Below, piece after piece: positions 1 to 12,115 of a stretch of DNA of 13,014 bases; the stretch's first letter is position 1; every line of letters begins with the position of its first letter. Position numbers and translations under genes: made by a program. The DNA is from Candidatus Woesearchaeota archaeon (GTDB taxonomy: Archaea > Nanobdellota > Nanobdellia > Woesearchaeales > GW2011-AR9): contig JACQNF010000016.1 of assembly GCA_016203215.1 (NCBI GenBank), positions 1 through 13,014 of the forward strand, in the 5' to 3' direction. The notes below the pieces were generated by a model, which was not told the DNA's origin, did no database searches, and was given only the letters and a program-made list of their open reading frames with translations.

Positions 1-76
1 TAACTGTTAAGAGGCCAACGTAGTTGGACGACTATATACTGGCCTTGCCCGCCGCGACGGCGAACTAAATACGTAC
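1..76 (-). mobile_element. Foldback (MITE-like) element, copy 1, cut by window edge
   Basis: Bases 41-76 carry the same terminal block as the complete copy at 4180-4367: GGCCTTGCCCGCC, then a spacer, then CGAACTAAATACGTAC. The orientation matches that copy; the strand is set relative to copy 3, taken as plus. Bases 1-40 match poorly, so this copy is diverged, rearranged or only partly in view. Its outer flank cannot be tested for a target duplication because the left end lies outside the window. No coding capacity is seen. Confidence 0.6.
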
Positions 77-123
77 GGATGGCTTTTTAAACGGGCTTTC
101 ATTCCTACCCTCACAGAGGTTTT

Positions 124-1282: not shown

Positions 1283-1301
1283 GTTTTCTCACGAGAAGTT
1301 T

Positions 1302-1328
1302 GTATTTAGTTCGCCATCACGACAGGCA
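1302..1328 (+). repeat. Remnant of a foldback-element end
   Basis: The 14 bases GTATTTAGTTCGCC are identical to the reverse complement of the end of copy 1 (57-76). The next 13 bases match at 9 positions, and all four differences are G in copy 1 against A here. No second end is visible nearby, so this looks like a solo end or decayed copy, placed at the 3' end of the pilin-like gene. Confidence 0.5.
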
Positions 1329-3332: not shown

Positions 3333-3557
3333 CTATTTCCACACTTCGTATTCCTTGACAATAATGATCACGAAGAGGAACAAGAGTACTGCTCCTGCAA
3401 CCATGAACCACAAGCCAGGGAGAACTGTTGACGTCGTAAGGGCTTGGTACATTCCCCATCCCATGACCAGAAAGCCGAGCCAAAGAAACTTGTCGAGGAC
3501 AAGTTTTAGGATCTGAAATTCCTGATCTGCAGTCATTTTCTTTTTATTGCGTGCCAT
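3333..3557 (-). CDS. Small two-helix membrane protein
   Basis: This is a 74-residue protein with a lysine-rich N-terminus and two predicted membrane helices (about 24-41 and 47-67), ending in a short charged tail (KEYEVWK). I do not recognise a family. I chose the ATG at 3557 over the GTG at 3566 because AGGTGAT, a seven-base match to the archaeal anti-Shine-Dalgarno, lies at 3563-3569, five bases before the ATG. That Shine-Dalgarno site overlaps the stop codon of the upstream pilin-like gene (3567-3569), so translation of the two is probably coupled. The link to a pilin-like gene suggests a membrane partner or accessory protein, but this is inferred from context only. Confidence 0.7.
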   Translation of the reverse strand: MARNKKKMTADQEFQILKLVLDKFLWLGFLVMGWGMYQALTTSTVLPGLWFMVAGAVLLFLFVIIIVKEYEVWK

Positions 3558-3566
3558 GAGTATCAC

Positions 3567-4094
3567 CTATCCTGTAATGGTTATGAAAAATGTCTTTGAG
3601 TCGTATAATGTTTTTTGACCATCTCCAGTTGACTCGTAAATTGAAACCTTGAATTGTCCCGTCCCTGAAATTGTTTCGGAAGTTACCCTAATGGGGATGA
3701 TTCTGGTTTCCGTAGGGGCTAATTCTTCCGCATCTGTACTATACAAGAAATTATCCCCAATAGAATCACCAAAAATTTTTGCTCCGCCTTTTTCCTCGAT
3801 GAGGACTTCATATTTTAACGTCCCTGCTTTAACATTTTTGATACCAATAGCAGTCACTTTTGCTTCTTTCTTCCCTAAGCTAATCTCCGACACGGGAAAG
3901 CTAAGTCTCTTATCCCCGCGGCTTAGATCATCGGTAATTTGTTGCCGGACTTGTTCTGTAACTTGTTTTGAAAGGTCACCAAACGTTTCAAAATTCTGGC
4001 GAACAAATCCTAAACCTAAACCAAGAACAATAAACGCAATAACAATAATCACAATCGCTTCAATTGATAGATTCAAAGACCCCTTTTTTGTCAT
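3567..4094 (-). CDS. Pilin-like protein with class III signal peptide (second paralogue)
   Basis: The protein has 175 residues. It begins MTKKG and then SLNLSIEAIVIIVIAF, a prepilin-type cleavage site and a single hydrophobic helix to about residue 30. An amphipathic stretch follows (about 31-58), then a beta-rich domain with LSFPVS, AIGIKN, KYEVLI and GTGQFKVSIY. These blocks align in order with the protein at 1337-1897, so the two are paralogues. The family-typical glutamate is at position +7 after the cleavage glycine rather than +5. The ATG at 4094 is preceded by GAGGTG (4103-4108) with eight bases of spacing, and by a TATA-like box at 4131-4140. It is the first gene of a two-gene unit with the small membrane protein. 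A role as a pilin or pseudopilin is likely; the filament type is unknown. Confidence 0.78.
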   Translation of the reverse strand: MTKKGSLNLSIEAIVIIVIAFIVLGLGLGFVRQNFETFGDLSKQVTEQVRQQITDDLSRGDKRLSFPVSEISLGKKEAKVTAIGIKNVKAGTLKYEVLIEEKGGAKIFGDSIGDNFLYSTDAEELAPTETRIIPIRVTSETISGTGQFKVSIYESTGDGQKTLYDSKTFFITITG

Positions 4095-4140: not shown

Positions 4141-4179
4141 CAACCTAATCTTTACAGGTATAAAAATGTTTCTACTTGC

Positions 4180-4367
4180 CTAACGTATTAAGTTCGCTAC
4201 GCCGCTTCGGCGAGCAGGCCGTCTTTCTCGCGGAGAATATAGTTGTCCTAACAGATGCACATAAACTGTTTAACTGCCTATTCTCCGACAATAATCAATC
4301 TGCTTCGCTCGGTAGAACGAGACAGACTTTGTGGCCTTGCCCGCCACAATAGCGAACTTAATACGTA
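4180..4367 (-). mobile_element. Foldback (MITE-like) element, copy 2, complete, 188 bp
   Basis: The ends carry a perfect 16-bp inverted repeat, ACGTATTAAGTTCGCT at 4183-4198 against 4351-4366. Immediately outside, the 8-bp direct repeat CTACTTGC occurs at 4172-4179 and 4368-4375, which looks like a target-site duplication. Inside, GCAGGCC pairs with GGCCTTGC, a TCTCG/CGAGA stretch follows, and CGGAGAATA can pair with TATTCTCCG. A side hairpin CGCCG-CTT-CGGCG sits in one arm, and the 40-base apical loop can itself pair AACAG with CTGTT. There is no open reading frame, so the element would depend on a transposase in trans. Orientation is opposite to copy 3. It lies between the pilin promoter and the 3' end of the prepilin peptidase gene. 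Confidence 0.8.
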
Positions 4368-4386
4368 CTACTTGCTACATTCATAC

Positions 4387-5241
4387 TCAAAGCCCCACGG
4401 TCATCTTCAGAAACGAGCTTGCAGGTTCTAATCCCCAGAGCACCAAGATGTAGGCAAATAGAAAGCTTGGAACGAAAGGGACGCCTTCGCGGATCACGAC
4501 TGACGGCAGTTTTCCTTCGCGATGGGCCGCCTGTAATGTTTCAATGTCCAATTTCTCAAGAGCACGTCGACGGGGAAACCGCTCATCATCTACGAGCACC
4601 TCTTCGCTGAGCCAATCTCCCTCTGTCAATTTCGAGGGAGAGATGCGTTTGACGAAGCATTCTTCCTCCACCGTCGTCACGAATAGAAACAAGTAGAATA
4701 ACGCGAGAGGGAGGAGCAAGAAAAGCCACCAGATATTCAAGAACGAAAACACCACCGCTGCGAATGAGAACATTCCCAGTGCTCCGTGAGGGGTTTTATA
4801 TTGTTTCAATTTTTCGATCAATGCGAGCTGGCAGGCCTTACGATGGGTAATTGAAAGCCCGGTTAACCAGCTCAGTCCGTAGAACGCGCCGACAATCAGG
4901 AGGAGGACAAAGAACCAGAGCAAAAGCAGGCTCGAAGAATGTAAAGGGTAGGCGATACCGATAACTGCGCCCATCCCCATCAGCAATTTGCTATCGCCCC
5001 CGCCCCATAAGTTTGTCTTATAGAGCACCCACGCTATCAAGAAACAGAAGAGGAGTCCTAAGGCGCCGCTCCAGATTAATTCCCAGCCCGTTGTCGGAGC
5101 AAAAATAGTCCTGATTCCTAACGCGGAGATAATAAGGCCATACGAGAGCAGATCCGGCACTTCTCGCGTCTTAAGATCCGAATACGAAGCGGCAAGCAAG
5201 AAAAACAATGTTACAACTCCCATCACGATCTCGAAAACCAT
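4387..5241 (-). CDS. Prepilin/preflagellin peptidase, GxGD family (A24)
   Basis: This 284-residue polytopic membrane protease would cut class III signal peptides of archaeal pilins, archaellins or related surface proteins. The two catalytic aspartates of the FlaK/EppA/PibD type are visible: D22 in SDLKTREVPD after helix 1, and D83 in WGGGDSKLLMGMG (the GxGD motif), each at the start of a membrane segment. A soluble section (about 190-245) precedes a conserved-looking EGVPFVPSF (252-260) and a last helix. The ATG at 5241 has no Shine-Dalgarno site, but ATTAATATACC (5262-5272) is centred 26 bases upstream, which indicates a leaderless transcript. Two likely substrates are encoded close by (1337-1897 and 3567-4094). 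Whether it serves pili or an archaellum cannot be told here. Confidence 0.9.
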   Translation of the reverse strand: MVFEIVMGVVTLFFLLAASYSDLKTREVPDLLSYGLIISALGIRTIFAPTTGWELIWSGALGLLFCFLIAWVLYKTNLWGGGDSKLLMGMGAVIGIAYPLHSSSLLLLWFFVLLLIVGAFYGLSWLTGLSITHRKACQLALIEKLKQYKTPHGALGMFSFAAVVFSFLNIWWLFLLLPLALFYLFLFVTTVEEECFVKRISPSKLTEGDWLSEEVLVDDERFPRRRALEKLDIETLQAAHREGKLPSVVIREGVPFVPSFLFAYILVLWGLEPASSFLKMTVGL

Positions 5242-10987: not shown

Positions 10988-11749
10988 CTATTTCTTTTTT
11001 GGTTCTTCTTTTTTCTCAGTAAGGTATTCATGACCTTTCTTTTTAATGACTGATTCGCGAATCTGCAATAATTTTCCGAGGTCTGCGGTAGCATAGCCCA
11101 CTTTGTCTTCAATTTCAAATCCTGCTTTCTCAATTTTTGGCTTAAGGTACGCTGCAATTTCCGGCCCTCGATATTTGGAGAAGTGATGGCTAATGTATTG
11201 GCTCTGTGCTTTATTAATTGCTCCTTCAGAATGTTTTGCTTTCTGGAGGTAAGCAGATCTCTTGAGCCGACCAACCGTTGCTTTTTTATCTTTCACAAGA
11301 TTTTCTAATTCACTGATACTTTCAACTCCTTTTACTGCTCCTACTCCTACGTGATCATCATAAAGCTTAACGAGAAAATCGTATTGCTCCTCTTCATCAA
11401 GCTTCATATCGTCCATAAACTTAGTATACGAGGGATGGACGCCCTTGAAATATTCTTTGATCCCTGTCGCAATCGCTTTCCTAATCTCTTTTTTCTTGCC
11501 AGTAAGTTTGGCTTCATCTCCACCGGCTTTACCAAATACTTTATCTAATTCTCCTTTAATGCCTGCATATAACTTATCCTGTGCGGGTGTAAAAACATTA
11601 TTATAAAGGTGGTTTTGATTTTCTTCTTTCGAGAATTCATCCCATGCCTTAAATGAGGTATCGAGATCTTTTGAATGTTCAGCACGTAACGAATCCATCA
11701 GCTCATCGATGTTCTTTGGTTTCTTTTTCTGTTCACCCTCTTTTGCCAT
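10988..11749 (-). CDS. Lysine-rich soluble protein, unknown function
   Basis: This is a 253-residue protein of a kind I do not recognise. Both ends are strongly basic (GEQKKKPKN at the start, KKEEPKKK at the end), and the rest is mostly helical with many Lys, Glu and Asp residues, no cysteine and no membrane segment. It has no catalytic motif that I can see. The ATG at 11749 follows CTATTTATAC (11771-11780), centred 26 bases upstream, so the transcript is probably leaderless; GGAAGG directly adjacent to the ATG is too close for a ribosome site. The CYTH gene follows 22 bases after its stop. A complete foldback element is inserted just upstream of this promoter. High charge and helicity could mean nucleic-acid or ribosome association, which is inference only. 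Confidence 0.7.
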   Translation of the reverse strand: MAKEGEQKKKPKNIDELMDSLRAEHSKDLDTSFKAWDEFSKEENQNHLYNNVFTPAQDKLYAGIKGELDKVFGKAGGDEAKLTGKKKEIRKAIATGIKEYFKGVHPSYTKFMDDMKLDEEEQYDFLVKLYDDHVGVGAVKGVESISELENLVKDKKATVGRLKRSAYLQKAKHSEGAINKAQSQYISHHFSKYRGPEIAAYLKPKIEKAGFEIEDKVGYATADLGKLLQIRESVIKKKGHEYLTEKKEEPKKK

Positions 11750-11770
11750 CCTTCCAGAAGAATGTTTAAA

Positions 11771-11780
11771 GTATAAATAG
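11771..11780 (-). promoter_or_regulatory. TATA box of the Lys-rich/CYTH unit
   Basis: CTATTTATAC on the minus strand is centred 26 bases before the ATG at 11749. The direct repeat flanking foldback copy 3 begins at 11785, so the element sits where the BRE and upstream promoter region would be. Confidence 0.6.
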
Positions 11781-11794
11781 ATTTCGTTCTTTAG

Positions 11795-11982
11795 GGCCCC
11801 GTAGAAAAAGTCGCCGCGGCGGGCAAGGCCAAAGTGTCTGTCTCGATCTACTGAGTGAAGCAGAGTAATTCATGTCGGAGAATATCCGCCTGAACGTTTT
11901 TTCTTCAAGCCGTTCACACCTTGATATTCTCCGCGAGACAGACGGCCCGCCCGCCGAAGCGGCGTAGCGAACTAAATAAGTA
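11795..11982 (+). mobile_element. Foldback (MITE-like) element, copy 3, complete, 188 bp
   Basis: It is flanked by the 10-bp direct repeat CGTTCTTTAG at 11785-11794 and 11983-11992. The interior is 188 bp, the same as copy 2, and it aligns with the reverse complement of copy 2: GGCGGGCAAGGCC, TCTGTCTCG, a CTAC-GAAGCAG block, GTCGGAGAATAT, a loop, ATATTCTCCG, CGAGACAGACGGCC, CGCCGAAGCGGCG and GTAGCGAACTAAATAAGTA. The stem pairings GTCTGTCTCG/CGAGACAGAC and GGAGAATAT/ATATTCTCC are perfect here. The apical loop differs in sequence from copy 2 but can still pair (GAACG/CGTTC). The left terminal repeat (GTAGAAAAAGTCGCC) is degenerate. It contains no coding sequence. Confidence 0.8.
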
Positions 11983-11991
11983 CGTTCTTTA

Positions 11992-12010
11992 GTACGTATC
12001 AAGTTCGTCA
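11992..12010 (+). repeat. Adjacent remnant of a foldback-element end
   Basis: TACGTATCAAGTTCGTC resembles the terminal repeat ACGTATTAAGTTCGCT and lies just beyond copy 3. Together with the end of copy 3 it can form a hairpin (GAAC...TACGT against ACGTA...GTTC, about 11970-12007). It may be the head of a decayed second element, showing repeated insertion at one place. The bases from here to 12061 hold nothing else that I can identify. Confidence 0.4.
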
Positions 12011-12061
12011 TGACAATGGCAAGATCCATTGACCAAAAAGTCTCACTTTTTCCAGAAATAC

Positions 12062-12073
12062 TTATATTTATAA
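12062..12073 (+). promoter_or_regulatory. TATA box of the nucleotidyltransferase gene
   Basis: TTATATTTATAA lies about 60 bases before the ATG at 12128 and predicts a leader of roughly 35 bases that carries the GGAGGT ribosome site (12116-12121). Confidence 0.55.
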
Positions 12074-12115
12074 AAGAACACCTCCTACTATCGAGAGAGC
12101 AGAGTCTCACCTACT

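Follow-up and report, generated by a model that had tools for sequence, protein, structure and literature searches.

The window analysed here is a stretch of 13,014 nucleotides that forms contig C74 of a Candidatus Woesearchaeota assembly (G000, hereafter the source genome; 649,795 bases on 93 contigs, 83% complete). It holds two full-length foldback elements, copies 2 and 3, and several partial ones (Table 1). Copy 2 lies between a prepilin-peptidase-like gene (4387-5241, PF01478) and a small membrane-protein gene with no Pfam match (3567-4094); the latter is served by the TATA box facing the left end of the element and has its called start 85–86 bp from that end. Read directly in the window, both copies are as an earlier sequence-only reading had described them, with 188 bp between direct repeats (copy 3 at 11795-11982) and opposite orientations, and the perfect terminal inverted repeat given there as 16 bp in copy 2 extends over 17 bp. 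The two copies match as inverted arms, with 77% complementarity over 90 nt and 91% over 58 nt. The promoter-facing (right) end of copy 3 is diverged, and the 10-bp repeat around this copy is best described as an 8-bp duplication with chance matches or with a diverged right end. The further traces proposed, a cut copy and two remnants that bring the count to about five in 13 kb, were all located. At the end of the cut copy the best TATA score falls at offset 7, and it is therefore not counted as a TATA match below. The elements had been said to lack coding capacity, which holds: in the window a single doubtful frame overlaps copy 3 (11766-12110, minus strand).

Table 1. Elements, target duplications and facing promoters in the window
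Feature	Position	Strand	Remark
Copy 2, full-length element	4180..4367	+	about 4181-4368 from terminal repeat to terminal repeat if the GTAC terminus is counted
Target duplication CTACTTGC, left of copy 2	4172..4179	.	window sequence, flank comparison
Target duplication CTACTTGC, right of copy 2	4368..4375	.	window sequence, flank comparison
Terminal inverted repeat, left arm, copy 2	4183..4199	+	pairs with 4350-4366
Terminal inverted repeat, right arm, copy 2	4350..4366	-	
TATA box TTTTTATA, facing left end of copy 2	4159..4166	-	aligned in G001 and G002
Copy 3, full-length element	11795..11983	-	window sequence, alignment
Target duplication CGTTCTTTAG of copy 3	11785..11794	.	8 bp plus chance matches
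Target duplication CGTTCTTTAG of copy 3, second copy	11983..11992	.	
TATA box of gene 10988-11749, facing copy 3	11772..11779	-	start codon 45–46 bp from element end
Longer variant, right part, cut by contig start	1..76	+	
TATA-like box	84..91	+	between end of 1-76 copy and ATG at 124
Right-end remnant	1298..1328	-	faces promoter of TatD-like gene 442-1251 at offset 14, with the start codon at 46 bp
Left-end-like remnant adjoining copy 3	11992..12020	+	left out of counts

Gene-less inverted-repeat families in three related genomes

A search of the source genome with the 188-bp copy 2, as the sequence-only reading had suggested, returned 53 matches at E ≤ 10. Eighteen full-length copies (186–190 bp) could be aligned, and their median pairwise identity of 0.78 (maximum 0.88) indicates that they are not young. 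The terminal repeat reads GTACGTATTTAGTTCGC. An end matrix of 14 positions, running inward from TATTTAG, was scanned over 205,581 bp of the source genome in stretches chosen partly because they hold copies, and yielded 100 ends scoring 10 bits or more, compared with 8 after shuffling, and 88 scoring 12 bits or more, compared with 1 after shuffling. Sorting by hand, with some ends missed by the scan added and weak or doubtful ones, including that at 11992 in the window, omitted, gave 28 single ends and 27 two-ended copies of 65–311 bp, short enough for MITEs, which stay below about 600 bp. Inner parts vary. The copy on contig C62 (L020/L023) holds extra hairpins in its loop, and much smaller forms occur on C89 (65 bp between ends) and C26 (85 bp), while a longer variant on C46, C3, C9, C12, C45 and at window positions 1-76 has an additional segment before its right end. 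This segment is a hairpin (window 1-76; L021, L022, L036, L037 and L042), and several contigs start or stop inside the variant, probably because assembly across such similar copies fails.

The target duplication is best described as 8 bp long and often decayed. Flanking 8-mers agree at seven or more positions in 8 of the 27 two-ended copies when read in plain register, compared with 1 of 702 swapped flank pairs. Whether copies genome-wide carry flank duplications had been named as a point on which the mobile-element reading turns, and with a shift of up to 2 bp allowed at each end 13 of the 27 do, compared with 5 of 702 swapped pairs; in the other two-ended copies the duplication is decayed or was never present. 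Among the 18 full copies, the longest stretch common to both flanks is 8–10 bp in seven, and it is 8 bp in 2 of 306 swapped pairs.

Empty sites, which the sequence-only reading had proposed to look for, were found in the sister genome G002 at the positions matching C14:4287, C19:3865 and C74:4181 (copy 2). In all three the TATA box and BRE region lie within the conserved flank alignment to G002, which lacks the element, and these promoters are therefore older than the insertions. At C74:4181 the aligned flanks are separated by 78 bp in G002 and by 276 bp in the window, a difference close to the 196 bp of an element plus one duplication; the promoter there also aligns in the second sister genome, G001, up to near the insertion point, where the G001 site holds other DNA as well. 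The G002 alignment at C74:11795 (copy 3) supports the promoter side only, with other DNA between the genes. A gene-less inverted-repeat family with target duplications, absent at three matching sites, is what the sequence-only reading had in mind in calling the elements MITE-like, and that part of it stands; what it missed is the promoter-locked position described below and the existence of sister families with the same 14-bp ends. A DDE-type transposase supplied in trans characteristically leaves defined ends, a duplication of fixed length and empty sites, and it is likely that the elements are mobilised in this way.

Searched by blastn with the element, 59 genomes gave a match in the source genome and none in its 58 relatives, and the left-end pattern of the source species was found in the source genome and in none of the 48 other family members. 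A wider sample of 371 genomes contained five with this pattern, four of them with a single match, which is no more than a reversed control pattern gave. Restriction of the family to one genome is nevertheless rejected, since the outer 14 bp are common to G001 and G002. GTACGTATTTAGTT is the commonest repeated 14-mer in 348,602 bp of G002 (5 places). With at most one mismatch the 14-bp end occurs 25 times in 337,008 bp of G001 (shuffled, 0), 11 times in 737,526 bp of G002 (shuffled, 2) and not at all in 279,908 bp taken from 20 further genera of the family (shuffled, 0). When two mismatches are allowed the counts are 40, 15 and 2 (shuffled, 1, 7 and 8). As far as sampled, the element group looks confined to one genus.

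The interiors have diverged more. When 28 G001 elements were compared they fell into two clusters, 18 of a 176-bp type and 10 of a 143-bp type. Seven of the 18 align with the source-genome interior over a short stretch better than all 60 shuffles, a weak similarity, and none of the 10 does so; four G002 elements form one cluster, and two of them exceed all 60 shuffles. A complete lack of relationship between the sister-family interiors and the source family is in part rejected by this comparison. A Nop-domain protein encoded in a sister genome is taken, with the TATA-type leaderless promoters described below, as a sign that the organism is archaeal.

Distance from element end to TATA box

The TATA matrix used here derives from 97 upstream regions of the source genome that are free of elements and were taken from simple gene calls. 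In these regions the TTTAWA motif has its peak at positions -31 to -28 relative to the start codon, which indicates leaderless promoters. Among the 27 two-ended copies a TATA box (score ≥4) starts 9–20 bp outside an end in 23 and 12–16 bp outside one end in 22, most often at 14, leaving five exceptions to the narrower range, whereas for uniform non-coding points in element-free gaps the corresponding count is 1,235 of 11,969 (10.3%; P about 1e-17). An offset of 14 equals the 8-bp duplication plus about 6 bp at the position of the BRE. The called start codon lies 44–46 bp from an end in 13 of the 27, as expected from the position of the TTTAWA peak. Scored end by end, 42 of the 88 ends of at least 12 bits face a TATA box, 24 of them at exactly 14 bp and 8 at 12 bp, with no orientation bias (18 right, 16 left and 8 unclassified). 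No preference for strong TATA boxes was found (P 0.22).

Intergenic gaps in the source genome are short (median 56 bp). A second null was confined to the same gap. Positions were drawn uniformly over its free room, conditional on a TATA box within 9–20 bp, for the 22 of 23 TATA-facing copies that can be placed between called genes; 21 of the 22 lie at 12–16 bp, compared with 4.7 expected, and none of 200,000 simulations reached as high a count. Seven copies have 69–716 bp of room on the far side and still lie at 12–16 bp, one of them being the C59 copy, for which the room is overstated because a tRNA gene (L005:1725-1809) stands about 40 bp from its promoter-far end.

The same spacing is seen in G001. 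Pairs of ends (up to three mismatches) were selected there with the duplication (7–8 of 8) as a criterion, giving 23 elements of 128–308 bp in 999,763 bp; 17 have a perfect 8/8 duplication, and three shuffles each gave none. A TATA box starts at 12–16 bp in 18 of the 23, with five exceptions, compared with 12,327 of 123,249 non-coding points (10.0%; P about 2e-14). Because promoters played no part in choosing these elements, which come from a different species and different sites, the G001 count replicates the finding independently. Both G002 pairs also have the TATA box at 12–16 bp.

Probable targeting of insertion to the core promoter

That elements in three related archaeal species have landed repeatedly at nearly one point a short way before the TATA box suggests that the mover homes on the promoter or on proteins bound to it. 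We consider it probable that the elements are mini-transposons mobilised in trans, and that their transposase places them on the immediate upstream side of the archaeal core promoter, perhaps through contact with TBP/TFB. In this scheme, a transposase supplied in trans would recognise the terminal sequence GTACGTATTWAGTT and insert the element with duplication of 8 bp; insertion would be targeted to promoters, with the duplicated 8 bp abutting the BRE position on its upstream side, and the TATA box would consequently start about 14 bp beyond the element end, whichever way the element is oriented. The duplicated stretch stops about 6 bp before the TATA box, which in archaeal promoters is the upstream boundary of the BRE, the site occupied by TFB. 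The spacing would thus arise at integration and not by later selection, with the transposase either touching TBP/TFB or reading the BRE/TATA DNA, and the element would gain a harmless insertion site in a genome densely packed with genes.

Direct reading is a sub-case of targeted insertion: the transposase would respond to BRE/TATA sequence or to bendability and need no contact with TBP/TFB. Sequence data cannot separate the two, as what they give is a fixed spacing to an AT-rich motif. The base preferences next to the TATA box fit direct reading, with A at 3–4 bp before it at frequencies of 0.85 and 0.69 in 39 insertion sites versus 0.59 and 0.62 in 56 element-free promoters, and C at 7–8 bp before it at 0.49 and 0.41 versus 0.27 and 0.30, differences for which significance was not computed. 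On the other hand, many sites resemble functional leaderless promoters, as judged by the start-codon distance above, and no strong motif was found within the duplicated 8 bp of the 39 insertion sites, whose composition is broadly that of other promoters with somewhat more C in the last two positions; both observations are compatible with direct reading too. We regard this variant as a tentative but serious possibility.

Alternatively, insertion may be random, with purifying selection in a compact genome leaving only copies upstream of promoters. In its favour, the gaps are short, an insertion into a gene would not persist, and copies at other places may have been removed by selection. Remnants also often retain the end towards the promoter: a TATA box starts 9–20 bp outside 18 of the 28 single ends and 10 have none in that range, probably because deletions away from a promoter are tolerated and deletions into it are not. 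However, such filtering predicts a spread over the free room instead of a peak at 14 bp. The copies with ample far-side room do not show this spread, and in G001, where gaps are longer (median 83.5 bp), the peak is unchanged. Nor can a later deletion between end and promoter have shifted all copies into place, since this is impossible for those with perfect duplications on both sides. We consider this explanation unlikely.

It is very improbable that the repeats are immobile, promoter-proximal regulatory elements or structured RNA genes. Their location upstream of promoters and strong foldback (z of -6.8 and -7.8 for copies 2 and 3; 47 consensus pairs in the alignment, 7 with two-sided change) would suit such a role, but they occur in both orientations with target duplications and empty sites, and sister species have the same ends with diverged interiors. 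Rfam at gathering score also matched none of the elements, giving no hit in the window and two tRNAs only across 15 loci (121,129 bp). Individual elements might nonetheless have acquired a regulatory role later.

Candidate enzymes and related systems

The sequence-only reading had proposed to look for a transposase gene bounded by element-like ends. None was found in these incomplete genomes: five DDE family searches in the source genome gave one cut IS5-like gene and one artefact, and no transposase between element ends was seen in the examined parts of G001 and G002 (by ends and self-repeats). Self-comparison gave repeat pairs of at least 350 bp twice in G001 and once in G002. A 1,864-bp end pair in G001 with a 6/8 duplication was rejected, its left end belonging to a 143-bp element with a perfect duplication; its four frames gave a sub-threshold cupredoxin match only. 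A Pfam scan of ten among at least 270 accessory G001 frames identified a serine recombinase and a reverse transcriptase and no DDE transposase.

The cut IS5-like gene is the sole transposase from the source-genome searches, but that such an enzyme moves the foldback elements is scarcely credible, as its relative L050 has the ends GGCTCTGTAGAAA and not GTACGTATTTAG, this foreign motif is also present in the tail of the C67 frame, and the L050 protein gave no tblastn match to a relative in those parts of G001 and G002 that were examined, although both genomes contain elements. The gene lies at a contig end (L048; G000:C67:9046-9261) with the motif GGCTCTGTAGAA on the reverse strand, the different end found in its relatives. 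This motif also occurs just outside elements on C58 of the source genome and at L132, L145, L171 and L192 of G001.

Other known mobile groups were compared with the elements. IS66 has GTAA ends, an 8-bp duplication and its own transposase; derivation from it is rejected, as the elements end in GTAC and the single sub-threshold PF03050 match is an artefact with no element ends nearby. REP/BIME elements of RAYT (IS200/IS605-like) enzymes are hairpins without target duplication and are ruled out by the 8-bp duplications, which also argue against an origin from casposons, since these use a Cas1 integrase and make a longer duplication. One blastn search and three exact patterns found no elements in phages or viral contigs, and the sole GTDB match (L047, from a horse-faeces archaeon) is attributed to chance, being 27 bp inside open frames and without ends. 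A search for a TFIIB-type factor (PF00382, E ≤ 0.01), positive in 4 of 14 control genomes, gave nothing in the 83%-complete source assembly.

Archaeal MITEs are already known, with SM1–SM4 of Sulfolobus present in 25–44 copies per genome (PMC10969869). The present elements share with these and other prokaryotic MITEs their short, non-coding form, terminal inverted repeats, target duplications, tens of copies and mostly intergenic location. They differ in having no known parent transposon and in a TATA spacing fixed within a few base pairs, whereas the account of insertion preferences in PMC10969869 describes intergenic location and names no fixed promoter distance. Correia elements of Neisseria are likewise MITEs found mainly immediately upstream of genes, but bring their own promoter (PMC10969869), while the host promoter here lies outside the element and predates it where compared. 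IS elements, too, are often near genes (PMC9208149). A closer likeness is that to Ty3, which integrates in a narrow window upstream of Pol III genes through TFIIIB, including contact with TBP (PMC8632968); Ty3 is, however, a retrotransposon with an integrase, whereas the present case concerns a DNA mini-element at protein-gene promoters of an archaeon, for which TBP/TFB contact is proposed. The tRNA-gene-targeting retrotransposons of Dictyostelium (PMC5006619) similarly insert in a position-specific manner as a strategy for persisting in a compact genome, but use other enzymes and tRNA genes in another domain of life. Judged by titles and the starts of abstracts, no archaeal transposon at a fixed distance upstream of a TATA box was found in the literature searched.

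Targeting through the general transcription machinery is known from eukaryotic retrotransposons, and archaeal TBP and TFB are simple forms of the same machinery. A bolder version of promoter-targeted insertion is that archaeal DNA transposition finds its targets through bound TBP-TFB on protein-gene promoters, inserting almost to the base pair where TFB ends on its upstream side, as a DNA-transposon counterpart of Ty3 at TFIIIB. Within one genus this system would have given rise to three or more mini-element families that have diverged but retain a common 14-bp end; we would place this version a little short of probable. If true, recognition of a promoter complex by an integrating enzyme could be tested with few purified proteins, and the tolerance of a gene-dense archaeal genome for tens of insertions would be explained. 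The copies also amount to a ready-made collection of promoters, each interrupted at the same upstream distance, in which the importance of sequence upstream of the BRE for expression could be examined.

Some G001 elements have further features beside them. The reverse transcriptase frame (L134:2286-3398, PF00078) stops a few bases before an element end at 3404, and the serine recombinase gene (L193:15381-16175; PF00239, PF07508) lies at a distance of about 0.8 kb from an element whose 8-bp duplication is perfect. In several cases (L133, L135, L141, L143 and L171) the motif GGCACAATCC recurs just outside the element end that is far from the promoter, followed by a GTGAGTGATGG-like sequence, and is perhaps a further repeat family.
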